From a virus: a DNA stretch of 24,766 nucleotides. The DNA is taken from positions 1-24,766 of IMG/VR virus record IMGVR_UViG_3300029268_002517, one strand, 5' to 3'. The notes under the pieces were generated by a model, which was not told where the DNA came from, did not search any database, and saw only the letters and a list, made by a program, of their open reading frames with translations. The position numbers were made by a program, and so were the translations under genes. Positions 9,049 through 24,766 of the stretch are shown here, one piece after another; the stretch's first letter is position 1; every line of letters starts with the position of its first letter.

Positions 9049-9050
9049 GA

Positions 9051-10674: not shown

Positions 10675-10678
10675 AAAT

Positions 10679-11257: not shown

Positions 11258-11273
11258 AGCCAACCTCCCGGTT

Positions 11274-11301
11274 GGAATGCGAAATGTGAAATGCGAAATG
11301 A
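11274..11301. repeat. Heptamer array, unit GAAATGC-like
   Basis: Units GGAATGC, GAAATGT, GAAATGC and GAAATGA lie between the membrane-peptide stop and the hydrolase ribosome site. Confidence 0.75.
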
Positions 11302-11306
11302 GGGGA

Positions 11307-11408
11307 TCATTTTTTGAAGAAGGGGAGGAACATGACTGCGGCCCAGATCGCGAGGCAGCCTGCGGCGATCCAGAGGTTTGATGAAGTGCTGCGGCGGCGG
11401 GATCTCAT
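11307..11408 (-). CDS. 33-residue membrane peptide (holin-like position)
   Basis: A short gene starting MRSRRRSTSSNLWIAAG and ending in FLPFFKK. It has a strongly basic N-terminus, one hydrophobic segment (LWIAAGCLAIWAAVMFLPFF, about 12-31) and a Lys-Lys tail, so it is a single-span membrane peptide with the N-terminus probably inside. Its ATG overlaps the stop of the upstream lipoprotein (ATGA), which argues that it is real despite its size. Between lipoprotein and hydrolase in the lysis block, a small holin or holin regulator is the obvious guess. Confidence 0.6.
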   Translation of the reverse strand: MRSRRRSTSSNLWIAAGCLAIWAAVMFLPFFKK

Positions 11409-11833: not shown

Positions 11834-12393
11834 AATGAAGTGGCCTGGCGGCTATCGTCTGCAGACGACACGGAGAGCGTCCCCGCCGTTGCCGCCAGGC
11901 GCTTTGGTTGGTTGTAGATTGTGAGGGATGGAGTGGAGAGCGGAGCTCCGCGCTTCCACGCAGGAGCAACCGCAGATAGATTCTGAAACTCCAGGCCGTC
12001 CTGGTTGATTGGCTTGAGCACGACGACGACGAGCGGGAGCCGGTGGAATGCAATGAGCTTGCGCAGCCGTTGCAGGAACCGTGCATCGTCCTTGCTTTCC
12101 AGGATCAGCGCGACCGCCCCGGCCTTCCTGGTCTGCGATGCGTAGTTCAAACTTTGTCCGACTGCCTCGCACCATTTCGCGGCAAACTCGACCTCGACCG
12201 CATGCGTGGCGGTGAGCACATCGCACCGCGTGCCGTCGCGCATCCGGACTTCACTTTTTGCCCCGGACTCGGACGCCAGTGCATCCGCATACCAACTCTC
12301 CAGATGCTGGTGCCCGGCATAGACCGGCGTGCAGGAGGAAAGAACGCTGGCCACGGCGAAGATCACCGTGACCAGCGCTGCTATGCTACGCAA
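11830..12393 (-). CDS. Lipoprotein with PD-(D/E)XK nuclease-like core
   Basis: From TTG 12393 this reads 187 residues: signal MRSIAALVTVIFAVASV with lipobox LSSC (Cys21), then a domain with GTRCDVLTATHAVEVEFAAKW and EAVGQSLNYASQ. This order (Asp58, Glu67/Glu69, Lys73, then the Gln80-x3-Tyr84 pattern) is that of PD-(D/E)XK folds of the RecB type; strands AVALILES and LPLVVVVLKP complete the core. The exact DxK spacing is irregular, so catalytic activity is uncertain. The open frame runs up to 12528, but its first 45 codons pass through two heptamer arrays and look non-coding, so I place the start at the signal peptide. It is the first gene of the late operon. The combination of an exported lipid anchor and a nuclease-like domain is unusual. 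Confidence 0.65.
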   Translation of the reverse strand: MRSIAALVTVIFAVASVLSSCTPVYAGHQHLESWYADALASESGAKSEVRMRDGTRCDVLTATHAVEVEFAAKWCEAVGQSLNYASQTRKAGAVALILESKDDARFLQRLRKLIAFHRLPLVVVVLKPINQDGLEFQNLSAVAPAWKRGAPLSTPSLTIYNQPKRLAATAGTLSVSSADDSRQATSL

Positions 12394-12394
12394 A

Positions 12395-12422
12395 TTCCGC
12401 AATCCGCATTCCGCATTCCGCA
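12395..12422. repeat. Heptamer array upstream of the nuclease-like lipoprotein, unit TTCCGCA
   Basis: Units TTCCGCA, ATCCGCA, TTCCGCA, TTCCGCA. Its GGAA-rich complement lies immediately before the TTG start of the lipoprotein gene. Confidence 0.8.
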
Positions 12423-12490
12423 ATCGAAAGAGATTCCCGGACACGGCTGAGATGAACTCCCCACCACGGGCACAACCGTGCCGGGAAAGA

Positions 12491-12525
12491 AAAGGAGGAA
12501 GGCCGAAGGATGAAGGATGAAGGCT
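12491..12525. repeat. Heptamer array at the plus-strand gene start, unit GAAGGAT
   Basis: Units AAAGGAG, GAAGGCC, GAAGGAT, GAAGGAT, GAAGGCT. It contains both the AAGGAGG site and the ATG at 12510. Confidence 0.8.
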
Positions 12526-12818
12526 CACTTGGCTTGCCCTCCGACCGCCGCTTTCGCACCTTTCAGCGCATGGATCACTACCGTCCCCTTTCCTTCTACA
12601 AGAGCGCTGCCGAGCGTCTCTGCGAAGCAGGCTGGATCGACCGCGCCGTCGTAAGCCAGACTGACCTGCGGGTCCGCTGGACCGACAAGGGCCGCGCCCG
12701 CGCCGCTCAGCTCCTCGACCTTCTCGCCGAGTTGGAAGAGGACGGCCAATCCCTGGACTGCGAGACGCTCGAAACGATCTACGCGATCTGCGGCATGAAC
12801 GATCCTCGAACGCCGTAG
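12510..12818 (+). CDS. Small winged-helix-like protein next to the late promoter region
   Basis: A 102-residue protein (82 residues if it starts at ATG 12570). The part from MDHYRPLSFYKSAAERL has a helix, a strand-like segment (AVVSQTDLRVRWTDKG) and a long helix ARAAQLLDLLAELEEDG, a pattern seen in small winged-helix or phage regulatory proteins. Start choice is open: ATG 12510 has AAGGAGG 11 nt upstream but lies inside a heptamer array, while ATG 12570 is where protein-like sequence begins. The plus-strand reading is preferred over the antisense frame because its composition is protein-like. It stands alone on the plus strand, diverging from the late operon, and is a candidate regulator of late genes, but this is only position-based. 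Confidence 0.6.
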   Translation: MKDEGSLGLPSDRRFRTFQRMDHYRPLSFYKSAAERLCEAGWIDRAVVSQTDLRVRWTDKGRARAAQLLDLLAELEEDGQSLDCETLETIYAICGMNDPRTP

Positions 12819-12901
12819 GAATTCCATGAAGCGCGGATCAGGCGACATCGCCGTCCCAAAAACCGCCCGTTCACGCAGAGCCTCCGGAACAGCGTCCCGT
12901 T

Positions 12902-12936
12902 TTTCAGCTTTCCGCTTTCCGCTTTCCGCCTTATGC
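12902..12936. repeat. Heptamer array, unit TTTCCGC
   Basis: Units TTTCAGC, three perfect TTTCCGC, and CTTATGC, in the non-coding gap between convergent genes. Confidence 0.8.
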
Positions 12937-12964
12937 TTGCTTCCTGTGGTGAGCGCCGCGTTCA

Positions 12965-12985
12965 TGTGGCAGCGAACCTGCCACA
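12965..12985. terminator. Perfect inverted repeat, possible bidirectional terminator or regulatory hairpin
   Basis: TGTGGCAG (12965-12972) and CTGCCACA (12978-12985) pair over 8 bases around loop CGAAC. It lies where the plus-strand winged-helix transcript and the minus-strand moron transcript converge. No T-run follows on either strand, so a rho-independent terminator is doubtful. Confidence 0.35.
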
Positions 12986-13040
12986 ATCAAAATAAGCCGG
13001 GAAAAGCTACACGCGGCTCGCGGGACTCACGGTGAGAAAA

Positions 13041-14084
13041 TTAAACCGGCCCTTTTCTCAATGAACTCTCTGCCATCAATGCCAGCATCGCTGATGAAAT
13101 ACACCGGAGTTTTTGACACCGAGAAACCCAGTCTTGCAACGCGTTTTTCCATTCGTTTTTCGGTCTGACATATTTTGGGGAATACTTTTTAATAATGGAG
13201 GCAATCAATCCCGGTTGACTGCGAGCGAGAGTTTCCATCTCGCTGCGCTTCGCTGACTTTTTGAAATGAATTCCGGCAGCTTGTAGTGATTCGGAAAATT
13301 CGGCTTTTGTGACACCGTTCGGCTCGTCTTCATCAGTGGGTTCTTGGAAGCACCCAATCCATTGAATGAAATGCAGGTTCAAATCTGCGCTGCACCCGTA
13401 TTGCCGATCACCGTAGTAGAGATCAGGGCGGAGCGCCAATGCACCCCAAGTTCTCGTAAAATAATCTACTATGACAAGGCGGGCCATTGGGGGAATGCGT
13501 ATCATCCATTCCCCTACGGTCACAACTTCGTTTCCGACATCGCGCATCAACTCAACTACAGCCTCCTCTGCCTGCTCCACCTTCCGGCGCTTTTTGTGTG
13601 GCCCGTCTTCCACATCAGCTTGAATCGCTGCATTCTCCCGAAGAATATCCAGCATCCCGATTGGCGGCCGCCATGTGATGCTCGCCAACCTGCTGGAGAA
13701 TAAATCCGTGGTCGCGTGAGCTGTGCTGCATCGGTTCATGCTGTTGTCTTGCAGTGCCATTCTCAGTCCGAGGAGATTGATAGCTCGCAACTCTGCGCTA
13801 GATTCAGCGTCCAGACACCAGCGATCATCAACGCGAACACAAAACCCTCGCCGAAGAAGTTCTTTTTCTGCAACTCCGTTGCTCGTGAGAAATCCCCACA
13901 ACTCCACTATTGCCTCGAATTCTCCGTTCGCAACCCACCCTGCCACTACGGAGGTGAAATCTGTTACAGGGTAGTATCCTCCTGGGCTGTAGTTTGGATC
14001 CAAAAATGGATATTCTTGGTGGGACCACGGTTTGAGTTGGGTGAATAGGTTTGAAACAGCAACTGTTTTGAAAGTGTGTGTCAT
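13041..14084 (-). CDS. Uncharacterised repressor-linked gene, probable lysogenic-conversion (moron) gene
   Basis: A 347-residue protein I do not recognise. It has no signal peptide or membrane span. The N-terminal 120 residues are aromatic-rich (QLKPWSHQEYPFLDPNYSP, AIVELWGFLTSNG, VDDRWCLDAE). A basic patch (GPHKKRRKVEQ) lies at 161-171. Residues 258-300 (TKAEFSESLQAAGIHF, then SEMETLARSQPGLIASII) look like a SAP-type helix-loop-helix DNA-binding motif. It follows the repressor on the same strand with a 29-nt gap, so it is likely expressed in the lysogen. Its base composition is visibly lower in GC than its neighbours, which suggests separate acquisition. Superinfection exclusion or host defence is a reasonable guess from position alone. 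The stop is TGA near 13041. Confidence 0.75.
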   Translation of the reverse strand: MTHTFKTVAVSNLFTQLKPWSHQEYPFLDPNYSPGGYYPVTDFTSVVAGWVANGEFEAIVELWGFLTSNGVAEKELLRRGFCVRVDDRWCLDAESSAELRAINLLGLRMALQDNSMNRCSTAHATTDLFSSRLASITWRPPIGMLDILRENAAIQADVEDGPHKKRRKVEQAEEAVVELMRDVGNEVVTVGEWMIRIPPMARLVIVDYFTRTWGALALRPDLYYGDRQYGCSADLNLHFIQWIGCFQEPTDEDEPNGVTKAEFSESLQAAGIHFKKSAKRSEMETLARSQPGLIASIIKKYSPKYVRPKNEWKNALQDWVSRCQKLRCISSAMLALMAESSLRKGPV

Positions 14085-14113
14085 GTCTTTTTATGTCGCC
14101 GCAACATGGCGAG

Positions 14114-14425
14114 CTAAATTTTTTTGACCGCAGATTCAAGGTCGGCGCGTAGTTTTGTCAGCTTCTTCTCTGCGTCCCGCGCTCGCTGCCGCCAGTTGTC
14201 CTGAACGAACGGTTCGCCGCTCGGTGGGGCCGTGCCAGCAAGGAGCCACTCCATCGACACCCCGAGCAAGTCAGCCAGATTGAGTAGCTCTTTCGCCTTC
14301 GGAATTCTCCCGTTGAGGTATTTTGAGATTGCCGCCTGCGAGCATCCTGCCGCTGCGGCTAGGTCCTTCTGGGTCAAGTGGTGCCTCATCATCTCAGATG
14401 TGAGGCGGTCTCCAAATAATTCCAA
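14114..14425 (-). CDS. XRE-family helix-turn-helix phage repressor
   Basis: A helix-turn-helix protein of 103 residues from TTG 14425, or 92 from ATG 14392. The XRE domain reads LFGDRLTSEMMRHHLTQKD, then LAAAAGCSQAAISKYLNGR (the classic helix 2-turn-helix 3), then KELLNLADLLGVSMEWLLAG. The C-terminal 30 residues (RQRARDAEKKLTKLRADLE) form a coiled coil for dimerisation. No S24 protease domain is present, so control is not of the lambda CI cleavage type. I favour the TTG because it completes helix 1, but neither start has a good ribosome site. It lies head-to-head with the early operon, whose first ATG would directly abut the TTG. It most likely acts like Mu c or a Cro-like switch protein. Confidence 0.85.
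   Translation of the reverse strand: MELFGDRLTSEMMRHHLTQKDLAAAAGCSQAAISKYLNGRIPKAKELLNLADLLGVSMEWLLAGTAPPSGEPFVQDNWRQRARDAEKKLTKLRADLESAVKKI
14384..14405. promoter_or_regulatory. Near-perfect palindrome, candidate operator at the repressor/early junction
   Basis: The inner part CATCTCAGATG (14390-14400) is a perfect 5-1-5 inverted repeat, and the flanks CCTCA (14384-14388) and TGAGG (14401-14405) continue it, with one extra T on the left side. The two 10-base arms would fit a dimeric HTH repressor. It covers the tandem ATG codons of the repressor and lies about 20 nt before the early ATG 14426, so binding could control both directions. No clear sigma70 -10/-35 pair is visible. The palindrome is seen directly; its role is inferred. 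Confidence 0.5.
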
Positions 14426-14665
14426 ATGGCAATGATGCCGCAACCAAAGGCGAAAGCCAAAGCAAAAACCGCAGCTCCGGCGGCGGTTAAAACCCCGAAC
14501 GAAACCCAGCTCCGGCGCTACCACGTCATCTGCGACGGCCGAATGTCGGTGGTCCAGGCCGACTATGTGCGTATCGACGACAACCACTACACCTTCATCG
14601 GCGAGGACGGCGAGCCGAACGGATTCTTCCCGACTGACCGCACCGCCATCGTCCGCCTGTCGTGA
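14426..14665 (+). CDS. First early-operon protein, unknown
   Basis: A 79-residue protein I do not recognise. The first 25 residues are Lys/Ala/Pro-rich (QPKAKAKAKTAAP) and probably disordered or DNA-contacting. The rest (RRYHVICDGRMSVVQADYV, then HYTFIGEDGE and FFPTDRTAIVRLS) alternates hydrophobic and polar residues like a small beta barrel. It is the first gene of the rightward early operon, head-to-head with the repressor. The next gene overlaps its stop (GTGA), which supports translation. The ribosome site is poor; ATG 14435 is an alternative start. Confidence 0.6.
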   Translation: MAMMPQPKAKAKAKTAAPAAVKTPNETQLRRYHVICDGRMSVVQADYVRIDDNHYTFIGEDGEPNGFFPTDRTAIVRLS

Positions 14666-14808: not shown

Positions 14809-14904
14809 GCGCCTTCCCTTTCCTCGCCGAGCCCGCGCCACTGCGTGCGCCGCGCGATCAAACGCGAACTCGGAATCTCTGAACCCGACGAACGCGCCGC
14901 CTGA
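14805..14904 (+). pseudogene. Possible frameshifted small gene
   Basis: GTG 14805 overlaps the stop of the HTH gene and begins MSAFPFLAEPAPLR, then stays open only to 14882. Shifting by one base near 14850 gives a convincing ending, RRAIKRELGISEPDERAA, stopping at 14904 just before the next gene. Either one base has been gained or lost, or neither frame is used. It would encode about 32 residues of unknown role. Confidence 0.3.
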
Positions 14905-14910
14905 AGATTT

Positions 14911-15147
14911 ATGAACACGAAAGCCACCACCAAAAAAGCCAGCCCGAAAAGCCCATCGGGGGAACCGCAGATCCACGCCGCCGAAATCCTTGAGGCCGTC
15001 GCCTATCGTCTCTACGAGCACGCCGACACCTGCTCCGAGCGAGCCGCCGAGCGTCGCGGAGACATCGATCCCCGCTGGGTCCTCATGTGGACAATCCTCA
15101 CCGACGAGCTGATCGCCCTCGCCGAGATCGCCGAAGGCCGCAAATGA
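14911..15147 (+). CDS. Small early protein of unknown function
   Basis: A 78-residue protein I do not recognise. A Lys/Thr/Ser/Pro-rich N-terminus (MNTKATTKKASPKSPSGE) leads into an amphipathic helical body: AAEILEAVAYRLYEHADTC, then WVLMWTILTDELIALAEIAEG. It has no membrane span or known catalytic motif. It lies in the run of short regulatory genes between repressor and transposase and is followed after 27 nt by a DNA-binding protein gene. Confidence 0.65.
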   Translation: MNTKATTKKASPKSPSGEPQIHAAEILEAVAYRLYEHADTCSERAAERRGDIDPRWVLMWTILTDELIALAEIAEGRK

Positions 15148-15174
15148 AAAAGCCGTTGAGCCAAACCGCCTGAA

Positions 15175-15516
15175 ATGAGCGAATCACAATCCTCCTGGGA
15201 CTGGCTGGTGCCGACGACGAAGGATCTACTTCGGACCGACGAGGTCGCCCGGTTCATCGGACGCAAGGAAACGTTCGTCTATGAGTTGGTCGAGGAGGGG
15301 AAGCTCGAAGCCTTCGAGCCCACCGACCGCGAGGTCAAGCGCAAGGTGATCACCTCGCGCTCCGTGCGCCTGGTCCTCGCCGAACAGGCGCGCAGCAATC
15401 CCGCCAACTTCGCCGAGCGCGTTCTCTCCCTCCTTCCGCACCTCGACTCCGCTTCCCTCTCCCGGCTCATCGCCGAGGCCACCCGCCTCCGCTCGAAAAA
15501 ACTCACCGCCATCTAA
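15175..15516 (+). CDS. MerR/excisionase-like helix-turn-helix protein
   Basis: A 113-residue protein with a winged helix-turn-helix at about 20-70: TDEVARFIGRKETFVYELVE, then GKLEAFEPTDREVKRKVITS and RSVRLVLAE. This matches the HTH_17/excisionase pattern in which the turn is followed by a short wing. The C-terminal 40 residues (FAERVLSLLPHLDSASLSRL) are helical and probably mediate oligomerisation. It precedes the transposase by one gene and may control early transcription or transposition. An excision factor for the downstream integron-type recombinase is also conceivable but unsupported. Confidence 0.75.
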   Translation: MSESQSSWDWLVPTTKDLLRTDEVARFIGRKETFVYELVEEGKLEAFEPTDREVKRKVITSRSVRLVLAEQARSNPANFAERVLSLLPHLDSASLSRLIAEATRLRSKKLTAI

Positions 15517-15519
15517 TCC

Positions 15520-16374
15520 ATGAAACCCCGTTCCACATTCCCCATTTCGCATTCCGCATTGCCGACGAAGTCGGCCAAAACTTCCGCCCCGCCCGTGGGC
15601 AGCAGCGATCCCAAGTCAGGTATCATCGTCGCAACGGGCAAACTTTCAAATTCCACATTGAGCATTTCGCATTCCGAGGACGCAGTCCTCGGCGAACAGC
15701 TCACCGAGCAATACCAGCTCGCGTGCGGCGCGATGACCGAGGTTCTCAAGTTCGGGGCCATGATGATGATGCTCCGGGAAAACCTCTCCACGCGTGGAGT
15801 CAACTCTGCGAAACGCGGTCCGGGAACCAAAGGCACCGGTCTGAAAGCCTGGCTGAAAGAGCACGCGCCGGAGGTCAAGGAGGCCACCGCCTACCGTTTC
15901 ATGAACGTGGCGATGGCGGTCTCGGAAAAATTCGCGTTGCCGAAGAAGATCAAGTTCGCGGAGCTGGCGTCGAAGAGCGCCGCAGATCTTCCGAAGGCGC
16001 TCCAGAAAAAGCAGCTTGAGCTGTGGGACTTTGTGAACGGCACGAGCCAGCGCTCCTGGCTCGACCAGTTCACGCCGAAGGGAGGATCGCGGGAGAGGCC
16101 GAATGGAACGAAGCGGCGAACGCGAGACATGAAGGATTTCGATGATGCGCTTTCGCAGGCGATGGACTGGTATGAGCTGGGCGTTGTGGGGCTCAAGGAG
16201 TCCTACCTTCACAGCGACGAGCGCTGGATGGTGCTGCCCGAGGTGCAGCTCGCCAACGTCGCCGACCTGGTGAAGCTCTGGGCCAAGAAGCTCGACGACG
16301 TGTGCCGCTCGCGCAAAGTCGTCCCGAGCAAACTGCGCGACTGGGACAAGGATCTTTCGGAGGCCGGGCTATGA
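15520..16374 (+). CDS. Unknown early protein upstream of the transposase, doubtful N-terminus
   Basis: The frame encodes 284 residues. The part that looks like protein begins near residue 57 (VLGEQLTEQYQLACGAMTEV) and runs through helical segments GTGLKAWLKEHAPEVKEATAY and a basic region GGSRERPNGTKRRTRD (about 190-205) to the C-terminus. The pattern of a helix, a Lys-rich loop and LKEHAPEVKEATAYRFM recalls DUF3102-type proteins of mobile elements, with low confidence. The first 55 codons contain two heptamer arrays 120 bases apart and low-complexity Ser/Pro sequence, so the true start may be downstream. The stop overlaps the transposase start (ATGA). Confidence 0.65.
   Translation: MKPRSTFPISHSALPTKSAKTSAPPVGSSDPKSGIIVATGKLSNSTLSISHSEDAVLGEQLTEQYQLACGAMTEVLKFGAMMMMLRENLSTRGVNSAKRGPGTKGTGLKAWLKEHAPEVKEATAYRFMNVAMAVSEKFALPKKIKFAELASKSAADLPKALQKKQLELWDFVNGTSQRSWLDQFTPKGGSRERPNGTKRRTRDMKDFDDALSQAMDWYELGVVGLKESYLHSDERWMVLPEVQLANVADLVKLWAKKLDDVCRSRKVVPSKLRDWDKDLSEAGL
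15531..15558. repeat. Heptamer array in the N-terminal codons of the gene upstream of the transposase
   Basis: Units TTCCACA, TTCCCCA, TTTCGCA, TTCCGCA, beginning 11 bases after the ATG at 15520. Confidence 0.7.
15651..15678. repeat. Second heptamer array, 120 bases after the first
   Basis: Units TTCCACA, TTGAGCA, TTTCGCA, TTCCGAG, the same unit family and the same reading frame as the array at 15531. Confidence 0.7.
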
Positions 16375-18224
16375 CACTCGATGCCTACCAGCGCGAGCGC
16401 ATTGGAATCCTGCGGCCGGTCATGCAGTGGATCGCAGATCATCCCAGCCGCGAAAACGCCAAGGCCACAGCAGCCGCACGCACCGGCTTTGGTTTCGGAA
16501 CAATCGAAACCCTCTTCCGTAACTGGAAGCGTGATGGAGACGCCGCGCTGATCAACCGCCGCAAGCTCAAGAAGGAGAAAAAGCCCGCGAGCGAATCGCT
16601 GGACATCACTGCCGCCGAGAGGAACAAACTCCGCCAGTTGGTGCTCCGCTGCAACAGCGTCCAATTCGCGCTGGAAGCCTTCGCGGATCTGCCCGACACG
16701 CGCCCCGAGCTGCGCGAGCTGATCACCCTCCATAGGGCGCGTAGAAATTATCCAAAGGTTTTGCGGCGCGCTGCCATGACCACTCCGGAGGAGCAGGATC
16801 TCGCGCGCGGCCCGAAGCGGTTTAATCTCCATGTGTCCACCCAGCTTCGCACGAATACCTGGATCGACTCAGCGGGAGTGGAGCACGAGCTGCAAGGCGG
16901 CGACTTGTATGAATGCGACGATATGAGTCTCAACCAGCCCTTCTGGTATGAGTGGCCGTATGGTGGAGATCCGCTCTCCGACATGTTCGGCGTCCGGCTC
17001 GGTCGCCAAATGCTCGCCTCCGTGGACACTGCCACTGGAAAATGGCTCGGCTTCGATCTCATCGGCCGGGTGCGCGATGCCTACCGCGCGGAGGACGTGG
17101 TCCGATTCCTCGGGCGCATCGGCGAGACGCACGGCCTGCCTCGCCTCGGGTTCCGCCTGGAGCGCGGCGTGTGGGCCTCGCGCGCCGTGCGCGGCGTGAA
17201 GGGGATCAGCGACGACGAGGAGCAAAAGGTTTTTGCCTCCGTGCGCGATGTGGTCGCGATCCACTACGTCCACAGCCCGAAAGCCAAGGGCATCATCGAA
17301 GGCAGCTTCGACATGCTGCAGACGATCCTCTCGCTCGACGGCATCCAGATCGGACGCGAGCGCGGGGAATACGAAAAGGCCACAGCAGCCATGCTGAAAT
17401 GCGCGGACGGGCGCATGCATCCGGCAAACGCGGGATTCCCCCACATCAGCGAAATCGCCCAGCGCATCGAGAATGCGATGAAGACAGCGGATGCCCGCCC
17501 GAAGCTGGGCCGTTTGCTGCGCGGCATCCCGCAAGAGCGGTTCGACGAATCCATCAGCGTGACTCCGTTGAATACCGTGCCCGAGAACTGCGCCCATCTT
17601 TTCCTGCCTGTCAGAAAGCCGACCCGCATCGACGGAACCTTCGTCCGCGTGAAGGTTCCGCATTACAAACACACGTTTTCTTTTTCGGTTCCCGACCGGC
17701 TCGCTTATCTCGGCAAGGGATACAGCCTTCTTGTTTGCTTCGATCCGGCAGATCCGCACGCGGGGGCGCGAGTGTTCGACGCCGAGACTGATGGGCGGTT
17801 GCATTTTGATTCCGTCGTGGGCCAAAGCTACGGGACCTTTGCTTTTGCTCCGGACGCCCCGCAGCTCAATTTTTCCAGCGCCGCAAAAGGCACGCAGCGC
17901 AGATCCTACGCCGCCGCCGCCCGCACGCACTTCCGCGCGACCGGCATGCGCCAGGGCACCGGCGCGAGCATCGACCAGGTCGCGGACGGCCACGGCTCCA
18001 GCGCACGGATCGCGCGCGGCCTGGACATCGCCCGGCCGGAAAACATCCCTGCCTCCAGCGCGCGCGCTGCAGAGGCCCTGCAGGCCCGGCGCAGCTTCGT
18101 GGAATCCGGCGAGCGCGCCACGGGCCGTCGCTTCCGCAATGTCACGAGCGCGGCACTCCTGGACGACGACGAGAACTACTCGCCCTGCGCGCCGTCGCGC
18201 CTCGGGGCGGAAGCCCTGCTGTAG
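16371..18224 (+). CDS. DDE transposase, MuA-like
   Basis: A 617-residue transposase that should cut and join phage ends during lysogenisation and replicative transposition. An N-terminal helix-turn-helix part (about 15-65, with FGFGTIETLFRNWKRDGDAAL) is followed by the RNase H-like core. The first catalytic Asp is Asp183 or Asp184 in YECDDMSLNQPFW; the Glu of the last motif is Glu310 in AKGIIEGSFD. Where MuA has its second Asp, this protein reads FRLERGVWAS with Glu264. A beta-barrel and Arg/Ala-rich tail follow, as in Mu. ATG 16371 overlaps the previous stop; the frame is open from 16302 but the upstream codons read inside that gene. Confidence 0.9.
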   Translation: MTLDAYQRERIGILRPVMQWIADHPSRENAKATAAARTGFGFGTIETLFRNWKRDGDAALINRRKLKKEKKPASESLDITAAERNKLRQLVLRCNSVQFALEAFADLPDTRPELRELITLHRARRNYPKVLRRAAMTTPEEQDLARGPKRFNLHVSTQLRTNTWIDSAGVEHELQGGDLYECDDMSLNQPFWYEWPYGGDPLSDMFGVRLGRQMLASVDTATGKWLGFDLIGRVRDAYRAEDVVRFLGRIGETHGLPRLGFRLERGVWASRAVRGVKGISDDEEQKVFASVRDVVAIHYVHSPKAKGIIEGSFDMLQTILSLDGIQIGRERGEYEKATAAMLKCADGRMHPANAGFPHISEIAQRIENAMKTADARPKLGRLLRGIPQERFDESISVTPLNTVPENCAHLFLPVRKPTRIDGTFVRVKVPHYKHTFSFSVPDRLAYLGKGYSLLVCFDPADPHAGARVFDAETDGRLHFDSVVGQSYGTFAFAPDAPQLNFSSAAKGTQRRSYAAAARTHFRATGMRQGTGASIDQVADGHGSSARIARGLDIARPENIPASSARAAEALQARRSFVESGERATGRRFRNVTSAALLDDDENYSPCAPSRLGAEALL

Positions 18225-18240
18225 CACCCCACCACACTTT

Positions 18241-19398
18241 ATGAACACAACCACCACCACGCCACCCGAACCCAACCCCGAGCCGCAGTCCAACTCCGGC
18301 AACAACGTCCGCGCGTCATGGAACTTCTCGCTTCATGACATCCGTGTGCACCTTGCGCACTGCTCGCACGAAGCGAAGGAGATCCTGATCTCCTGCTTCC
18401 TGTGGTGCATCGAAGCCAAGCACCCGGTCAGCAGGCCGGAGTTCGCCCAGGCCATCGGCTACGATGCCTCGACGATCTACCGGATCTACTCGGGCAAATA
18501 CATCAACGCCACGACGCGCGAGCGCCTGGAAGTGCCGCCGAAGATGGTCGAGGCCGCACGCGCCTGGCTCGCCCGCCAGCGCAAAGCCTACACGCCCATC
18601 GGCGAGTTCATCCTCACGCCCACGGCCGAGCGGATCTTTCTCGCCTGCAACCTCGCCCGCGAATCCAAGACGCCGGTGTTCCTGTGGGGCCGGTCCCACA
18701 TCGGCAAGACCTGGGCGCTGGAAAAGTTCGCCGCCGACAACAACCACGGCCGCACGATCTATGTGCGCATGAAAGCCGCCACCGGCCTGGGCGGGATGGT
18801 GAAGCGGATCAATGAGCGCTGCGGCAACTCCGACAAGAGCAACACGGCGGATTCGATTGACCGCATCAAGCGCGCGCTGAGTCCGGAGACGCTCCTCATC
18901 CTGGACGAGCTCCACCTCCTGCAATACACCTACCGGCTCAATTCCTTTTTCGCGTGCCTGGAGGTGATCCGCGAAATCTATGACGAGGTCGGCTGCGGGA
19001 TGCTCCTCTGCGGCACCGAGCTGCTGCTTGAAAAAATGCGCGGTGGCACGCACGGCGAAATGGAGCAGCTCCTGCGGCGCGGTGTGCACAAATTCCACCT
19101 GCCGAAAATGCCGAGCAAGGATGACATCGGCGCGATCCTCGGCCACTACGGGATCAAGTTCCCGGCCAAGAAGGAAGTGATCAACATCGAGGTCGACGGC
19201 CAGCACCTCAACGAGATCCCCTACGATCTCCTGCGCCAGCTCGCCAAGGACGACGGCATCAAGTCGATCACCGAGCGCCTGCGCTACGCGGAGAAGCTCG
19301 CCAGCAAGGCCCGCACGTTCGCCACGATGGCCCACTTCATTGAGGCCGACGCGCGCATCAAATCCAACCGCCACGCGGATAACTCGGACTGGGATTGA
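18241..19398 (+). CDS. AAA+ transposition ATPase, MuB-like
   Basis: A 385-residue ATPase that selects target DNA and activates the transposase. The first 30 residues are Thr/Pro-rich and disordered. An HTH-type domain follows (about 60-110, VSRPEFAQAIGYDASTIYRI). The AAA+ core has Walker A at 150-157 (GRSHIGKT), Walker B at 218-223 (LLILDE) and a sensor strand near GMLLCGTELLLE. The C-terminus ends after a helical lid (YDLLRQLAKDDGIKSITERL). It directly follows the transposase gene, as B follows A in Mu. The leader is C/A-rich with no Shine-Dalgarno site. Confidence 0.9.
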   Translation: MNTTTTTPPEPNPEPQSNSGNNVRASWNFSLHDIRVHLAHCSHEAKEILISCFLWCIEAKHPVSRPEFAQAIGYDASTIYRIYSGKYINATTRERLEVPPKMVEAARAWLARQRKAYTPIGEFILTPTAERIFLACNLARESKTPVFLWGRSHIGKTWALEKFAADNNHGRTIYVRMKAATGLGGMVKRINERCGNSDKSNTADSIDRIKRALSPETLLILDELHLLQYTYRLNSFFACLEVIREIYDEVGCGMLLCGTELLLEKMRGGTHGEMEQLLRRGVHKFHLPKMPSKDDIGAILGHYGIKFPAKKEVINIEVDGQHLNEIPYDLLRQLAKDDGIKSITERLRYAEKLASKARTFATMAHFIEADARIKSNRHADNSDWD

Positions 19399-19403
19399 CC
19401 GCC

Positions 19404-19517
19404 ATGAAGACCGATCCTTACGCACCGCTGACCGAGCAGCAGATCGCCAGATTTCGCGAGCTGCTCCCACACATCGTCGCATGGCTGCGCGCCCGCGAGG
19501 GCAGGAGGGCGCAATGA
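19404..19517 (+). CDS. 37-residue early peptide, unknown
   Basis: A short gene, MKTDPYAPLTEQQIARFREL then LPHIVAWLRAREGRRAQ. The sequence is one long amphipathic helix with a basic end. It begins 5 nt after the ATPase stop and ends in an ATGA overlap with the next gene, whose ribosome site AGGAGG lies inside its last codons. It could be a real peptide or simply a coupling cistron; function unknown. Confidence 0.5.
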   Translation: MKTDPYAPLTEQQIARFRELLPHIVAWLRAREGRRAQ

Positions 19518-19717
19518 AACAGCCTGCCATCGACGCCACACGCCGCGCGGTTTGCCTCGCGCTCGAAGACTTGGGCGGGGTCAACACGCGGCTCCGCGAG
19601 ATCGAGGACGGCCTGATCACCGGAGACGAGGTCAACGAAATCATCAGTTGGTTGGAGAACGCCGCCGAGACGCTCTCCACCACTGCGCAGACAATCAAGG
19701 AGGGGATCAAGTTATGA
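19514..19717 (+). CDS. Small acidic early protein, unknown
   Basis: A 67-residue helical protein (MKQPAIDATRRAVCLALEDL, then VNTRLREIEDGLITGDEVNE). I do not recognise a family. The ATG at 19514 overlaps the previous stop and has AGGAGG 6 nt upstream, the best ribosome site of this stretch. The next gene overlaps its stop as well. No catalytic residues or membrane spans are seen. Such small cistrons lie between the B-like ATPase and Gam in other Mu-like phages. Confidence 0.65.
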   Translation: MKQPAIDATRRAVCLALEDLGGVNTRLREIEDGLITGDEVNEIISWLENAAETLSTTAQTIKEGIKL

Positions 19718-19971
19718 GCGCGGCCACTCTCTTCATCCACGTCCGCGAATATGGCGGCGCGTATATCGCGCGCTGCAACGGCAAGACAGCTAGCTCGACG
19801 GCTATGCCGATGTTTGCCGCAGAGAACGCGGCTCGCAAAGCGGCCGGAGTGCTGCTCTCGCTGGGCGTGATCGCGGCCGTTCCCGAAAAGCTCGTGCTCA
19901 AGGGAATCGTGCAGGGCTCTCTCTTCTCTTGCGAGGTCGGCCCCTGTCTCCCCCGGAGGTCCTCGAAATGA
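19714..19971 (+). CDS. Small early protein, unknown
   Basis: An 85-residue protein starting MSAATLFIHVREYGGAYIAR. The strand-like N-terminus (LFIHVREYGGAYIARCNGKTA) and the following Ala-rich helix (AAENAARKAAGVLLSLG) suggest a small alpha/beta fold, a layout I associate with short early proteins of transposable phages. The C-terminus (FSCEVGPCLPRRSSK) has two Cys. The start overlaps the previous stop (ATGA) and the stop overlaps the next start, whose ribosome site CGGAGG is embedded here. Function unknown. Confidence 0.65.
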   Translation: MSAATLFIHVREYGGAYIARCNGKTASSTAMPMFAAENAARKAAGVLLSLGVIAAVPEKLVLKGIVQGSLFSCEVGPCLPRRSSK

Positions 19972-20303
19972 ACGACCTGCGCGCCACCCTCACGATTAAC
20001 GGCACCAGCCTGCCCAGCATCTTCGCTGCAGCGGGCTCGCTGCTGCAGGATCAGCTCGTCGGCGAAATGAGCGGCATCCTGCGCAGCCAGGGCTACGCGG
20101 TGGAGATCCCACAGGCGTGGGAAACCCCTCGCGAACTTAGCGCGCGGCTGGGCATTCACATCGGAACCTTCTCCCGCAAAATTAACATGGGCGCGTGCCC
20201 GAAACCTTACGATGTGATCCGCGACAAGCGCGGCATCGCGTCGCTCCGCAGTCACAGCGTCCTGGACGCATTCCTAACTAAACCCCAACACCGCAAATCC
20301 TAA
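19968..20303 (+). CDS. Early helix-turn-helix protein, unknown target
   Basis: A 111-residue protein. Residues 49-80 (WETPRELSARLGIHIGTFSR and KINMGACPKP) form a helix-turn-helix with a basic recognition helix. The N-terminal half (LRATLTINGTSLPSIFAAAG) is Ala/Leu-rich. The C-terminus is basic and disordered. ATG 19968 overlaps the previous stop; GGAGG lies 8 nt upstream. It precedes Gam in the early operon and may be a regulator or DNA-binding accessory factor of transposition. Confidence 0.65.
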   Translation: MNDLRATLTINGTSLPSIFAAAGSLLQDQLVGEMSGILRSQGYAVEIPQAWETPRELSARLGIHIGTFSRKINMGACPKPYDVIRDKRGIASLRSHSVLDAFLTKPQHRKS

Positions 20304-20307
20304 TCCC

Positions 20308-20832
20308 ATGAAACCAGAAGACACCGACCAATACAAAAACCTCGTCGATCTGCTCGCAGTATTCGCCGAAGCATCCAACCGTCTCGAAGTCCTGCAATCC
20401 GACATCCAAGGAGGACTGATCGAGATCGTTGATGAGAAACGGAAAGAGTATGCCGAAGCGCAGGCCGCGCTCAGCCAGGCGGAAAGCGCCATTGAGCTGA
20501 TCGCAACCTCGCATCCCGAGTGGTTCAGCGAAAAGCGCCGCAGCATCAAAACCCCATACGGGACGGTCAGCTTCCGGCGCTCCACGAAACTGATGGTCTC
20601 CAATGAAGAGGCCAGCATTATCCTCATTGAGCAGCTCTGCGACAACGAAGCCGCCGCGCAGCTCGTGCGTCAGGAAAAGGCCCTCAACCTCGAAGCCTTG
20701 GAAAAACTCACCGATGCGGAATTGAAGCAATACCGCATCCGACGCGTCACCGAGGACAACTGCAGCGTCAAGCCCGCCAAGATCGATCTCGGCAAAGCGG
20801 TGAAGGAATCCGCAGAGCAGGAGGCCGCATGA
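20308..20832 (+). CDS. Host-nuclease inhibitor Gam-like protein
   Basis: A 174-residue Gam family protein. Mu Gam binds linear DNA ends and protects the infecting phage DNA from RecBCD-type exonucleases; it is related to Ku. The N-terminal half forms a long coiled coil (residues 10-65, DLLAVFAEASNRLEVLQSDI and following). The centre has the family segment FSEKRRSIKTPYGTVSFRRS with aromatic and basic residues. Residues 95-160 (IILIEQLCDNEAAAQLVRQE) are helical. Length fits the family. The leader is A/C-rich without a Shine-Dalgarno site; the stop overlaps the next small gene. Confidence 0.92.
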   Translation: MKPEDTDQYKNLVDLLAVFAEASNRLEVLQSDIQGGLIEIVDEKRKEYAEAQAALSQAESAIELIATSHPEWFSEKRRSIKTPYGTVSFRRSTKLMVSNEEASIILIEQLCDNEAAAQLVRQEKALNLEALEKLTDAELKQYRIRRVTEDNCSVKPAKIDLGKAVKESAEQEAA

Positions 20833-21017
20833 TCGCCAGCGCGACCTACACACTCACCGCCGCTGACGCGCTTTCGCTGAGCGTTGCCAGCGGGTTCGCG
20901 GGCGCGGCAGCGATCATCATCGTGCTCCTCGTGTGGGTGCTCATCCGCGACGCGCGCGACGCACGCGACCGGCGCGACCACTACGTCTCCAGCCGCCGCA
21001 CGCCCACCGGGATCTGA
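20829..21017 (+). CDS. Small single-pass membrane protein, unknown
   Basis: A 62-residue protein with one membrane span (about 16-39, SVASGFAGAAAIIIVLLVW) followed by a charged tail rich in Arg and Asp (LIRDARDARDRRDHY). The tail is probably cytoplasmic by the positive-inside rule. The start overlaps the Gam stop by 4 nt. Its function is unknown; small membrane proteins occur in early regions of other transposable phages. Confidence 0.65.
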   Translation: MIASATYTLTAADALSLSVASGFAGAAAIIIVLLVWVLIRDARDARDRRDHYVSSRRTPTGI

Positions 21018-21019
21018 TT

Positions 21020-21211
21020 ATGAGCTTCCTCACAAAACCTCCCTACGATCAGCCTCTCCGGTGCGTCATTCCGGTGCCGCGCGAACTCACGCCCGCCGAA
21101 GCCCGGCGCGTGCATGTGCTGCATCTCCGGCGCGACTCGCTCCTCAAGTCGCTCGCCTTCGTCGAGGCCAAGCTCGCCCGCGAGCTCTCGGCCCTCGCCC
21201 CGCTCCCATAA
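21020..21211 (+). CDS. Small early protein, unknown
   Basis: A 63-residue protein starting MSFLTKPPYDQPLRCVIPVP. It has a Pro-rich N-terminus and a basic helical C-terminus (EARRVHVLHLRRDSLLKSLA). It begins two bases after the membrane-protein stop. No family recognised. A 9-bp-period repeat covers its stop codon and the start of the gp16-like gene. Confidence 0.6.
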   Translation: MSFLTKPPYDQPLRCVIPVPRELTPAEARRVHVLHLRRDSLLKSLAFVEAKLARELSALAPLP

Positions 21212-21241
21212 GTCCTATCCGTCCTATTCGTCCCATGTTAA
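21206..21241. repeat. 9-bp-period repeat at the gp16-like start
   Basis: Four 9-bp units: CCCATAAGT, CCTATCCGT, CCTATTCGT, CCCATGTTA. They span the stop of the 63-aa gene and the ATG of the gp16-like gene. Confidence 0.6.
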
Positions 21242-22020
21242 CTCCCAAACAAATCCAGAAATACTGGCGGACCTGGGCGAAGATCCTCGCCTGCCAGGGA
21301 TGGTCGCACGAGACGGCCGTGCGCAAGGACGCGCGCCGGAAGGCGACGCACATCATGTGCGGGCTCAGGAACCCGGACGGATCGGGCCGGAGCATGAAGT
21401 CGTTCGAGAACCGCGATTTCTCGCGCTGGCTGGCCGCTACAGCCCACCTGTGCGGCGAGGTGGACATCCGGGACCGGGACCGCGAGAACGCCGTGTGGAC
21501 GATTGAACGGCTCGCAGCGGGCTTTGAGAAACTCCTGGGCACCGACTATGTGAGCGCGCTGAAACTCGACTGGCGCGACACCGAAGACCTGGACAAGTTT
21601 CCGGTCGAAGATCCGCTCCGCTACCTGCGCGACGAAAAGGGCCGCATCGATCCGCGTGATGCCGGGCGCATGCTCGATCTGCAGAACCTCCGGAACACTC
21701 TCAAGAATCGCCTCGGGCGCGTGATCCAGCGCCTGAAGGATGGAGCGCTGAAGCCCGGCCCGGACTGCCCGCGCTTCTACGACCGCAGCCAGGAGGAAAT
21801 CATTTCCGCCCTGGTCAACAAAGAGGCAATCACTCCGCGCCCGCGCCTAGTCATCACTCCGAATGGTGCAGTTCCTGTGGAAGTGCCCGCCACGCCCTCG
21901 CAGCCGCGCCGCAAATACATCCTGGACGGAGGACGCAGATCTTTTGGAACGCCTGTCGAATCACCACCGCTAAGGAGGAACGTCCTATGCCACCACGGCA
22001 GAGAAAGCCTGCCACCGTGA
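21235..22020 (+). CDS. Mu gp16-like protein, DUF1018
   Basis: A 261-residue protein whose first 150 residues match the DUF1018/gp16-like regulator family of transposable phages: MLTPKQIQKYWRTWAKILAC, then ATHIMCGLRNPDGSGRSMKS and FENRDFSRWLAATAHLCGEV. The role of the family is unclear, although it is often annotated as regulatory. The C-terminal 60 residues are a linker rich in Pro and Arg (ITPRPRLVITPNG) and look disordered. I start at ATG 21235, which lies in a 9-bp-period repeat; the frame is open far upstream but those codons are another gene. Its end overlaps the start of the next gene by 34 nt. Confidence 0.85.
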   Translation: MLTPKQIQKYWRTWAKILACQGWSHETAVRKDARRKATHIMCGLRNPDGSGRSMKSFENRDFSRWLAATAHLCGEVDIRDRDRENAVWTIERLAAGFEKLLGTDYVSALKLDWRDTEDLDKFPVEDPLRYLRDEKGRIDPRDAGRMLDLQNLRNTLKNRLGRVIQRLKDGALKPGPDCPRFYDRSQEEIISALVNKEAITPRPRLVITPNGAVPVEVPATPSQPRRKYILDGGRRSFGTPVESPPLRRNVLCHHGRESLPP

Positions 22021-22163
22021 TGGGTCCCACCCCCGTTGCGCCTCCGGCGAAAAGCAAATACTGCACGCACGCGACCCCGCCGCCCACGAAGCTCCCTCCC
22101 GCGCCACTCGCCCTGCCCGCTCCCGAGCCGGTGCACCACCTGGCCGACAACGAACCGTCCTGA
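21987..22163 (+). CDS. Proline-rich 58-residue protein overlapping the gp16-like gene
   Basis: This gene starts 34 nt inside the gp16-like gene in another frame. It has the strongest ribosome site of this region, AAGGAGG, 8 nt before ATG 21987. The protein (MPPRQRKPATVMGPTPVAPP, then KSKYCTHATPPPTKLPPAP) is about one third Pro and surely disordered. The strong site argues for translation, perhaps as a coupling cistron for the next gene. Function unknown. Confidence 0.55.
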   Translation: MPPRQRKPATVMGPTPVAPPAKSKYCTHATPPPTKLPPAPLALPAPEPVHHLADNEPS

Positions 22164-22166
22164 GCT

Positions 22167-22526
22167 ATGGACTACGGAGAACTGGCAATCCGCATCGAGA
22201 GCTTCCTGCTCACGGCGAAGCGCTGGTTTTCCACGGCTGAAATCTGCCGGGCATGCGGATGCCAGGAGCGCCTGCTGCGGGCTGATGGCAAACGCCGCCC
22301 GATCTTCCGCAAGTTCGCGATCAGCTCGTCCGCCAAGGGGCTCAAGCATCTGAATTTCACCACGGTCACGGAGCGGCTCACTTACAAACACGCGCGCCTG
22401 AAAGTCCTGATCTCGAACCGCCGCGCGCTCGACGATTTGGCCGAAGCCACCCGCTGCTGCCTCACAGGGAAATTCCCCGACCAGCGCGAGCGCTTCACCC
22501 AGCAGGCAACTCTTTTTCCTTTATGA
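22167..22526 (+). CDS. Early HTH-like protein with a clamp-binding-like C-terminus
   Basis: A 119-residue protein of unknown family. The N-terminal half (ESFLLTAKRWFSTAEICRAC, then GCQERLLRADGKRRPIFRKF) has an HTH-like pattern with a basic wing and two Cys pairs (Cys27, Cys30, Cys32). The C-terminus ends TQQATLFPL; residues 113-117 (QATLF) match the QxxLF form of bacterial sliding-clamp motifs. It sits between the Pro-rich peptide and a SAP-domain protein and overlaps the latter by 4 nt. Confidence 0.6.
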   Translation: MDYGELAIRIESFLLTAKRWFSTAEICRACGCQERLLRADGKRRPIFRKFAISSSAKGLKHLNFTTVTERLTYKHARLKVLISNRRALDDLAEATRCCLTGKFPDQRERFTQQATLFPL

Positions 22527-22831
22527 GCCTGTTCAACGAGCTGCTCTGGAATTTCGACCATGAGGGATGGAACGAGGATGACATCCCGAAATTGAAATTG
22601 AAGGAGATCCAGTTTCTCTGCCAGGCGCTGGGCGCTCCGAAGTCCGGCACGAAGGAAAGGGTTTCCACCCGCTTGCTCGCGGTCCGGCAGGTGCGCATGA
22701 AGATCTCAAAATATCCGTCGACCTCAGATGGCGTCCATGCCCTGGTCGCAGACTATCCGAAGGAAGCCCTGAAATGGATGGCCAAGGAGGCTGGGCAGTG
22801 GAGATCCGGAAACAAAAAACGTCAGTCGTGA
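22523..22831 (+). CDS. SAP-domain protein
   Basis: A 102-residue basic protein. Residues 24-53 (LKLKEIQFLCQALGAPKSGT, then KERVSTRLLAV) fit the SAP motif, a small helix-extended loop-helix that binds AT-rich or branched DNA. The remaining C-terminal part is Lys/Trp-rich. The ATG overlaps the upstream stop. Within an early operon it may act in replication or DNA condensation during transposition; no partner is visible. Confidence 0.7.
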   Translation: MSLFNELLWNFDHEGWNEDDIPKLKLKEIQFLCQALGAPKSGTKERVSTRLLAVRQVRMKISKYPSTSDGVHALVADYPKEALKWMAKEAGQWRSGNKKRQS

Positions 22832-23310
22832 GCAATCCCAGCCGGGGACGCGCTCCGCAACTCAATAAATCTATGGAAATGCCTGAAAACCAAAACTCGG
22901 AACGGGCTGGGATTGGCTCGACGACATTGTTCGGCGATTTCCCGACGCAGCGCACAACCTCGGACTGCTTCTCTGCATGTCTCTCTTGGCTGCTCGGCCT
23001 GCCGCAAGATGATGTGCCTGACTTCACCGGCCCCGATGACGGCTTTTACCGCCGAGTGGCGGAATGGCTTCGCCCCCGTGGACTCCGCATGCTGCTCATG
23101 GAGTGGGACAGCCTCCCGGCAATGCTCGGCGGTCCGATCATCGCTCGCGGAATGACTCGCCGCCGGAAGTATCACGCAGTCCTTTGGGATGACAACGGGC
23201 TACTGCACGACCCGCACCCATCAAGGGCCGGATTCAGCGCACCGCCAACACACGCGATGCTGATATTGATTTTTGCGAACAGTGTAATCAACAAACCGAG
23301 TTCGGATTAA
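22828..23310 (+). CDS. Papain-like cysteine-peptidase-fold protein
   Basis: A 160-residue protein (from GTG 22828; ATG 22873 or 22879 also possible). It shows the order of a papain-like (C39-type) fold: RTTSDCFSACLSWLLGLPQ with candidate Cys47 or Cys51, a domain with WLRPRGLRMLLMEWD and GGPIIARGMT, then KYHAVLWDDNGLLHDPHPS with His116 and Asp128. The HDPHPS ending is a pattern I know from small C39-like proteins of phages and bacteria. It could cleave a phage or host protein, or be catalytically reduced. It begins in a GTGA overlap and is followed after 3 nt by the integrase. Confidence 0.65.
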   Translation: MSNPSRGRAPQLNKSMEMPENQNSERAGIGSTTLFGDFPTQRTTSDCFSACLSWLLGLPQDDVPDFTGPDDGFYRRVAEWLRPRGLRMLLMEWDSLPAMLGGPIIARGMTRRRKYHAVLWDDNGLLHDPHPSRAGFSAPPTHAMLILIFANSVINKPSSD

Positions 23311-23313
23311 TTC

Positions 23314-24270
23314 ATGGGACTCATTGATCAATTCCGCATCCAGGCAAGCTGCCGGGAACTGCAAAAGCGCACGGTTTCCACGTATGAATTTTGGATCCGG
23401 AAATTTTTCAAAGACATGGGAAAGCCTCCGGCCTCCGAGTGGACGGGAGAAATGGTCTCGCGATGGATGCACCGCCTAGACCGTGAAAACTACTCTTCCG
23501 TGTCGCGCAAGCAGGCGCTGTGCGCCTTGGTGTTCGTCTTCCGGCATGTGCTGATGGTTGACGTCGGGAACCTTGGTCTGCCAAAGCCTCCGAGGGAAAA
23601 CTTTCACTTGCGCACGATCCCGAGCCGGGAGGAACTCGGGCGCATTTTCTCTGGCCTGAAAGGGCAGCCGCGCTTGATGGCTGCCCTCATGTATGGGGCT
23701 GGCCTCCGAGTCGAAGAAACCTGCAAGCTCCGCGTCCAGGACATTGATTTCGATGCCAAGACGATCCGGATCCACGGCGGAAAAGGCGACAAAGACCGCC
23801 TGTGCCTTCTGCCTGAAATTCTCTTTCCACACCTTCAGCGCCAGATCGCCTGGCGCGCAGCGCTGCACGACCAGGACGTCGCGGCAGGGGCGGGATATGT
23901 CGATCTGCCTGGAAGATTGGCTATCAAATATCCATCTGCGCCTCGCGAGCTACGGTGGCAGTTTCTTTTCCCCAGCCAGGCTATCCGCGATCAGCGGAGA
24001 TGGCATGCTGTCCCGGAGGGAGTCCAGAAGGCCATGCGCGCGGCCGTTCGGGCGGCTGGGATCACCAAACGCGTCACCCCGCACACCCTGCGCCATGCCT
24101 TTGCCACCCATGCGCTGCGCGCAGGGAATGATATCCGGACGATTCAGGATCTCCTCGGGCATGAGCACATCGAGACGACGATGATTTATCTGCACGGCGA
24201 TATGGCCAGGGGGGTGTCACCGCTGGATCTTCCTCCACCTGCGGTCATTCGCCATCAAGCGTTGTGCTGA
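23314..24270 (+). CDS. Integron-type tyrosine recombinase (IntI-like)
   Basis: A 318-residue tyrosine recombinase. The N-terminal SAM-like domain covers about 1-90. The catalytic domain has Arg132 (GAGLRVEE), Lys157 or Lys160 in GGKGDKDRL, His257 and Arg260 (PHTLRHAFAT), His283 (LLGHEHIETT) and Tyr292 (MIYLH). Between the Lys and His-x-x-Arg boxes lies an insert, GYVDLPGRLAIKYPSAP then WQFLFPSQAI, which matches the extra domain that marks IntI integrases and is absent from XerC/D. It lies in tight order with early genes of a phage expected to integrate by transposition. No attI or attC is recognisable in the window. Confidence 0.9.
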   Translation: MGLIDQFRIQASCRELQKRTVSTYEFWIRKFFKDMGKPPASEWTGEMVSRWMHRLDRENYSSVSRKQALCALVFVFRHVLMVDVGNLGLPKPPRENFHLRTIPSREELGRIFSGLKGQPRLMAALMYGAGLRVEETCKLRVQDIDFDAKTIRIHGGKGDKDRLCLLPEILFPHLQRQIAWRAALHDQDVAAGAGYVDLPGRLAIKYPSAPRELRWQFLFPSQAIRDQRRWHAVPEGVQKAMRAAVRAAGITKRVTPHTLRHAFATHALRAGNDIRTIQDLLGHEHIETTMIYLHGDMARGVSPLDLPPPAVIRHQALC

Positions 24271-24271
24271 T

Positions 24272-24766
24272 ATGCCCGCCGATTCCCTCGTCAAAAACTG
24301 GCTTCACCGGCTGAAAAACCAGTTCTATCCGGACAACGCGAAGGATTTCTACCAGCAGCGCAGCGTCCTCATTACCGCCATCACGACCCCGGCCCGGTGG
24401 CTCGACGAGCGCGGGGTCCGGTTGCCTGAAAAGCGCCTGGACGCCATTTTGACCGACATCCTCCGGGGAATCATGCACCACGGCGACACGGCCCGGATCG
24501 GTTACTTCTGCCGATACTACCTGAAGGCCGTCCAGGACCACATGACCCACCAGGGCGAGAAATACTACGAGGAGGGCAAAAGCCTCCGGTTCATCGTCGA
24601 TACCGCCCTCGAAAACCTCTCCAAGAAGCAGGCCGCAAAGCTCCCGGATGCCCAGGACCGCACCACCGCCGACCTCGCCGCCCTCAACCGCCTGGTGGAA
24701 TCCACCCGCGTCAAGAAGAGGAAGGCAGCGGCGGTCAAAACCGACCTTCAGCAGGAGCTATTCTGA
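24272..24766 (+). CDS. Uncharacterised protein downstream of the integrase, clamp-binding-like C-terminus
   Basis: A 164-residue basic, mostly helical protein I do not recognise (ADSLVKNWLHRLKNQFYPDN, then DAILTDILRGIMHHGDTAR and YFCRYYLKAVQDHMTHQGEK). It begins one base after the integrase stop, so the two are probably co-expressed. The last residues LQQELF resemble a sliding-clamp-binding motif (QxxLF). There is no membrane span. The stop codon is the last triplet of the window. It could be part of the integrase module or another replication gene. Confidence 0.7.
   Translation: MPADSLVKNWLHRLKNQFYPDNAKDFYQQRSVLITAITTPARWLDERGVRLPEKRLDAILTDILRGIMHHGDTARIGYFCRYYLKAVQDHMTHQGEKYYEEGKSLRFIVDTALENLSKKQAAKLPDAQDRTTADLAALNRLVESTRVKKRKAAAVKTDLQQELF

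Follow-up and report, generated by a model that had tools for sequence, protein, structure and literature searches.

A probable phage-owned integron with attC-bounded cassettes in the early operon of a Mu-like phage

The window analyzed in this study is the entire IMG/VR viral record IMGVR_UViG_3300029268_002517 (24,766 bases), a fragment without visible transposon ends. Its structural genes lie on the minus strand (1-14600) and its early genes on the plus strand (14900-24766), the two blocks diverging, which contrasts with the mostly one-way layout of phage Mu. The early region encodes a Mu-type transposase (16302-18224, plus strand; phrog_310, E 7e-8; 63% identity in the related phage contig G002), a MuB-like DNA transposition protein (18229-19398, plus strand; 88% to a G002 protein that itself matches phrog_296 with E 6e-29), and a Gam-like end-protection protein (20308-20832, plus strand; phrog_491, E 7.2e-8). 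On the structural side, family searches identified a Mu-like portal protein (5822-7444, minus strand; PF06074, E 3.2e-39), a major head protein, and a head protease. Judged by its transposase, MuB, Gam, and Mu-type structural genes, the phage can be assigned to the Mu-like transposable phages.

At the right end of the early block, a gene encoding an integron-type integrase (intI) is preceded by an attI-like site and a cassette region. The last gene common to G002 on the left of this array (22167-22526, plus strand; 35% to G002 20810-21148) has a weak HTH match just below the cut-off (PF08280, E 1.6e-4). On the right, gene Y (24272-24766, plus strand), the next gene of the operon after intI, is 89% identical in G002, where it adjoins the G002 intI; it had no family match in Pfam, NCBIfam, or PHROG and no match in the phage collection. 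The genes common to the window and G002 therefore flank the array on both sides, with the transposase, the MuB-like gene, and the gene at 22167 on the left and IntI and the next gene on the right. Because phage genes lie on both sides of it in these two phages, the array is not host DNA, and a host origin of the intI region, the doubt raised with the original prediction, was rejected on this ground.

The intI gene (23314-24270, plus strand) begins with an ATG and encodes a protein of 318 amino acids. This protein scored 282.9 bits against the integron integrase model TIGR02249 (curated cut-off 265), versus 124.3 bits against the XerC model (cut-off 335) and 123.5 bits against the XerD model (cut-off 330). 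Among PDB structures, the integron integrase 2a3v matched best (E 4.5e-52), with an alignment spanning the IntI-specific insert. Residues R132, K157, H257, R260, H283, and Y292, which we take to be the catalytic residues of a tyrosine recombinase, are invariant in the seven phage IntI proteins aligned. The original prediction of an integron-type integrase in a Mu-like phage, with the IntI-specific insert and all tyrosine-recombinase residues, was thus borne out, and the integrase is, by sequence, the one expected of an integron.

Relatives of this IntI were found in other viral contigs, at 86% identity in G002 (locus L003), 84% in G003 (L018) and G004 (L019), 67% in G001 (L002), 65% in G005 (L020), 60% in G006 (L021), 59% in L105, 57% in L106, and 53% in G015 (L030); the others, some of them fragments, stand at 35-49%. 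G003 and G004 are 99.995% identical across 20,864 bases. A scan of bacterial and archaeal species genomes yielded 23 loci with an IntI relative, with identities of up to 42% among full-length proteins and up to 46% among fragments. In a tree of 44 rows, the IntI proteins of the window, G001, G002, G003, G005, G006, and G015 form one clade (support 100/100), which falls on the IntI side with respect to XerD (100/100), as the original prediction had anticipated, and is sister to the other sampled IntI (84/88). This tree omits L078, L085, and L088 (odd ends), L084, L086, L087, and L089 (partial or weak), the fragments L031 and L032, the XerD locus L091, the near-copy L019, and L105-L109. With Xer scores below the cut-offs and XerD split off in the tree, the window protein does not belong to the XerC/XerD group; the phage proteins make up, at the sequence level, a phage-specific IntI clade apart from every bacterial IntI sampled. 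One database sequence, L079, is titled as a Bifidobacterium breve MAG while its IntI groups with those of acidobacterial MAGs, and it is probably a mis-binned contig.

Matches to a Mu-type transposase or portal were obtained for the window and for G001-G006, with a MuB-like gene in G001 and G002. Family searches gave no match to a Mu-type transposase, a portal, or a MuB-like protein in G015, and the integron system is therefore not confined to Mu-like phages. The G003 contig (L018) also carries, at 23244-24683, beyond the genes downstream of intI, a second transposase-like stretch with 32% to the window transposase, which falls past the point where the match between G003 and G004 ends.

Immediately upstream of intI lies the attI-like site (23274-23310, minus strand), with the box TGCGAAC at 23274-23280 and a predicted G|TT crossover on the minus strand. 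The integron junction is given as G|TTRRRY (PMC9892861). Related sites, reading ACTG|TT on the minus strand, are found just upstream of intI in all seven clade phages, and the distance from G|TT to the intI start is 30 or 33 nt in the 7/7 members examined (33 nt in the window). When the window was compared by blastn with G003 and G004, the only common stretch was 23278-24230, which begins at the AAC of the attI box and stops shortly before intI ends, and the DNA on the left of the site is unrelated. The bases left of AAC differ among the seven phages (TGCG, GGCT, GGCC, GCCC, GCAG, GCCT, and CTCT). Variable left bases next to a constant right part give the look that should be expected of an attI that has received cassettes, the appearance of the junction after insertion being a general integron rule. 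Present beside the 5' end of intI in 7/7, the site is a candidate attI; a plain phage attachment site was rejected, as its left half varies and matches cassette boxes.

Scanning with an attI motif returned 11 stretches, and besides the phage loci named in this text, the rest look like chance matches. The motif is also present in contig G018 (L009, 3544-3562, minus strand), where an ORF resembling an acyl carrier protein by eye runs into the motif and no intI was detectable beside it. Two other contigs, L106 (1-108) and L107 (1-99), both have their first base roughly 100 nt to the left of the attI box (located at 102 and 93, respectively), which could reflect an assembly break caused by several cassettes on one attI in the population.

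The window holds a single, worn cassette. In its attC (22814-22935, minus strand; R'' GCCGAAC, R' worn down to GTTTTTT), the inner helix is stronger than any other in the window, ranking first on both strands (plus, -36.0 with the next at -26.8; minus, -33.8 with the next non-overlapping one at -28.3); the L'' arm has two bulges and the L' arm none. It was first noticed by eye, then ranked top by a scan ignoring the variable box bases; the exact arm had no other occurrence in the viral contigs. The cassette gene, gene X (22873-23310, plus strand), starts at an ATG inside the attC within a frame open from 22774, and its stop codon lies in the attI-like site. The form starting at 22873 matches phrog_5845, a family with no assigned function (E 4.5e-19), from residue 25, just past the attC, while the gene X DNA had no match in the phage collection. 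The original prediction placed intI 3 nt after an early gene: the spacing is correct, since the ORF 22774-23310 stops 3 nt before intI, but this gene is the attI-proximal cassette gene, because its phrog_5845 match begins just past the attC. Upstream, an ORF whose stop codon is within the attC (22523-22831, plus strand; weak SAP-like match, PF18953, E 0.0058, below the cut-off) could represent either another cassette or a gene of the phage.

In the relatives, attC hairpins with R'' and R' boxes were found upstream of intI, four in G001, four in G002, three in G003, one in G005, three in G006, and four in G015, which with the one of the window gives 20 in seven phages. In an integron array, each R' is expected to be complementary to the next R'', and the attI box to be identical to the first R''. 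Exact box matches were observed at 18/20 junctions (6/7 at attI and 12/13 within the arrays), the two inexact ones being that of the window at attI (two mismatches) and that of the most distal G001 attC (one mismatch). In 200,000 permutations of the boxes, the mean was 1.8 exact matches and the maximum 10. These 20 attC were hand-chosen; in a less selected set of 25, detected by arm structure alone, 11/25 junctions were exact for a permuted maximum of 8. With its single attC, worn distal box, and two mismatches to attI, the window is the weakest member of the group.

A strict attC scan, whose counts include both readings of a single hairpin, was compared with the mean of five shuffles. It gave 1 hit against 2.8 for the window, 6 against 4.0 for G001, 7 against 1.6 for G002, 1 against 1.0 for G003, 0 against 4.2 for G004, 1 against 3.6 for G005, 4 against 3.8 for G006, 5 against 5.4 for G015, and 0 against 4.4 for G018. 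Only G002 stood out from the shuffles, and the window fell below its shuffled mean; relaxed scans of other parts of the contigs gave 2.3-6.2 hits per 3.5 kb. Most contigs were indistinguishable from chance in the strict scan, and it is the box chain, rather than single hairpins, that carries the case. The box-chain finder missed the first two G003 attC, which were added from a separate hairpin scan, and on bacterial IntI loci it gave scattered hits, mostly with one mismatch, that were treated as noise. Among more distant phages, exact chains were found in G013 (four attC), G009 (two), G011 (two), G012 (one), L105 (one), and L108 (two), and an inexact one in G007; the same search found no box chain in G010 and G014, and the attC search found no attC in L106, L107, and L109.

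The order of intI, attI, and array is kept in the seven phages, at least six of which are different. The attC-bounded cassettes and the adjoining attI-like site, for which the original prediction had suggested searching, support its proposal that cassettes could be captured into the phage, whereas nothing observed pointed to the other two functions it offered, the resolution of cointegrates and the targeting of host integron sites; attC-bounded cassettes are, by their sequence features, present in the group, with only the one worn cassette in the window. We found no sister phages differing only in cassettes among the relatives. The window and G002 have flanking genes and IntI (86%) in common and unrelated cassettes, which fits exchange and also fits long divergence.

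The direction of the cassette genes was examined against two polarity controls. The aadA1 attC of a P1 record, read gene-wise, is GTCTAACAA...CGTTGGGC and its L'' arm is the more bulged; by the same criterion, the attC close to intI in Shewanella phage M16-3 lies on the strand opposite intI, as do the cassette genes there. Relative to intI, the phage attC are oriented as in these controls, with AA after R'' in 12/20 and the L'' arm more bulged in 14, equal in 4, and less bulged in 2. A reversed attC polarity was rejected, being contradicted by the bulges and by the bases beside the boxes as checked on the aadA1 attC and M16-3. Pfam matches were obtained for 5/20 plus-strand cassette ORFs versus 0/10 minus-strand ORFs: four methyltransferases, two of them barely above the cut-off, and one HTH protein, the other 15 plus-strand ORFs giving none. 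Gene X, with its PHROG match, also speaks for the plus strand. At the 13 junctions between successive cassettes, the stop codon of the upstream gene falls within the attC that follows in 11, and in 6 it overlaps an in-frame ATG of that attC. Stop-free length alone leaves the direction unclear (plus longer in 11, minus in 1, equal in 7 of 19 cassettes). In the cassettes of the relatives, the first possible start is inside the attC in 9/19, before it in 5/19, and after it in 5/19, and an in-frame ATG is found within the attC in 13/19. Cutting frames at the attC border gives higher counts (plus longer in 17/19, start in attC in 14/19), and the uncut recount given above is the weaker one. Taken at the sequence level, the attC polarity is ordinary and the cassette genes are reversed, running toward attI on the intI strand and along the early operon. 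A gene in the sense of its attC, with the attC at its 3' end, is the usual arrangement and was not found here, but we know of no requirement of this trait for the name integron.

Several attC recur in different phages. An attC of G002 and an attC of G018 share 91% identity over 98 bp, and the same attC family is found in G002, G018, and L102/L103 before different genes. In G018, the frame starting in the attC continues into a protein with methyltransferase motifs, as seen by eye. In L102 and L103, the shared attC carries a nearly identical leader (MTAALDSA...GGHVLAHS), whose frame continues into another protein resembling methyltransferases, also judged by eye, and AGAGGAG ends 6 nt before the ATG. 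The G015 contig (L030) has a second array of attC-like repeats at 46109-46794, about 5 kb downstream of intI, and one of these repeats shares 92% identity over 75 bp with a G006 attC. The arm of this G006/G015 attC occurs exactly in 12 stretches (L113-L124) of 10 viral contigs; most of these stretches contain no IntI, and a long frame does not cross the attC in all of them. This recurrence of a single arm sequence in 10 contigs suggests a conserved attC family in circulation among phages.

Altogether, the original observation was confirmed and is larger than first noticed, and its interpretation is supported by the sequence analyses. We consider it likely that the locus is a phage-owned integron placed within a Mu-like early operon and serving cassette exchange, with several methyltransferases as cargo. 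In such a system, IntI would recombine folded single-stranded attC with attI, and circular cassettes would enter or leave at attI, probably during phage DNA replication. Cassette expression would come from read-through of the early operon together with start signals in the attC rather than from an integron promoter, and IntI would be made last, directly after the attI-proximal cassette gene. The cargo, which includes several DNA methyltransferases, could provide changeable protection, counter-defence, or regulation in the host, while the phage would still integrate by transposition.

A step further, and to our minds evenly balanced, is the proposal that these systems form a separate integron class, in which the attC at the 5' end of the gene would act as an expression cartridge and cassettes, methyltransferases included, would pass from phage to phage through a pool of their own, largely independent of bacterial integrons. 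In this cartridge, the hairpin would bring the ribosome-binding site, the start codon, and a leader peptide, plus the stop codon of the previous gene, and a captured cassette could be translated at once within the phage early operon.

As an alternative to a phage-owned integron, the phages could have accidentally acquired fragments of host chromosomal integrons, the array being passive baggage, as proposed for Vibrio phages (PMC9892861). Such a capture has been described for two Vibrio anguillarum prophages (PMC9892861), the window array looks worn, and G018 has the site with no IntI found in that contig. We nevertheless judge this unlikely, since the IntI clade stands apart from all bacterial IntI sampled (42% for the best full-length relative, 46% for the best fragment), the order of intI, attI, and array is constant in seven phages (at least six distinct ones), and the gene direction differs from that of the control integrons. 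Many phage attachment sites have inverted half-sites beside the recombinase gene, and the site described here, with two inverted half-sites adjoining intI, could belong to an IntI with another task in the phage, for example resolving cointegrates or dimers at a site of its own, with the hairpins being incidental; this is very improbable, as the boxes match attI and one another at 18/20 junctions, which resolution would not need, and the left half of the site varies. Least plausible of all is an ordinary attachment site through which IntI would integrate the phage into a host attC or attI: many phage tyrosine recombinases do adjoin their attachment site, but phage genes run on past both sides of the site in the window and G002 with no host DNA seen starting there, the Mu-like members have a transposase, and ORFs resembling other integrases by eye are present in the distant phages G009 and G007.

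If a phage-owned integron is indeed at work, some phages would have a site-specific means to add, drop, or reorder single early genes, beyond random mosaicism, which would offer a testable mechanism for the rapid turnover of phage genes such as methyltransferases. It would add one more setting for the circulation of attC cassettes, an integron design whose expression comes from the operon and the attC itself, and an IntI lineage outside the sampled bacterial groups that would be useful for the question of integron origin. In agreement with the original prediction, the PMC articles searched yielded no described Mu-like phage with an IntI; nor did they yield a description of an IntI clade specific to phages, of a Mu-like early operon that contains an integron, or of arrays whose genes point to attI.

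In common with known Mu-like phages are the transposase, the MuB-like and Gam-like proteins, and the Mu portal; the differences are an integron in the early operon and, in the window, diverging early and late genes. Integrons in phages are already known: Qi et al. 2023 (PMC9892861) reported integrons and attC clusters in phages, the complete ones being of host type (Vibrio, Shewanella, class 1), and phage attC sites worked with IntI1 in an assay. IntI, attI, attC cassettes, and methyltransferase cassettes within phage genomes are common to both studies, whereas the available part of that article names no phage-specific IntI clade, Mu-like early operon, or attI-directed genes; what would be new here is the phage-specific, operon-embedded form with reversed cassettes. 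In the Treponema integron (PMC3607928), intI is transcribed toward attI with the cassettes beyond attI, so that intI and the cassette genes have the same direction as they do here; the phage order is in contrast cassettes, attI, and intI, with attI 5' of intI in 7/7, which sets these loci apart from the Treponema type. Finally, with classical integrons, whether class 1 or chromosomal, the phage loci share an intI transcribed away from attI, the attC polarity, the G|TT crossover, and the matching of boxes along the array; unlike in those integrons, the cassette genes here run to attI, the attC precedes its gene and often holds the start codon, and the array is part of a phage operon.
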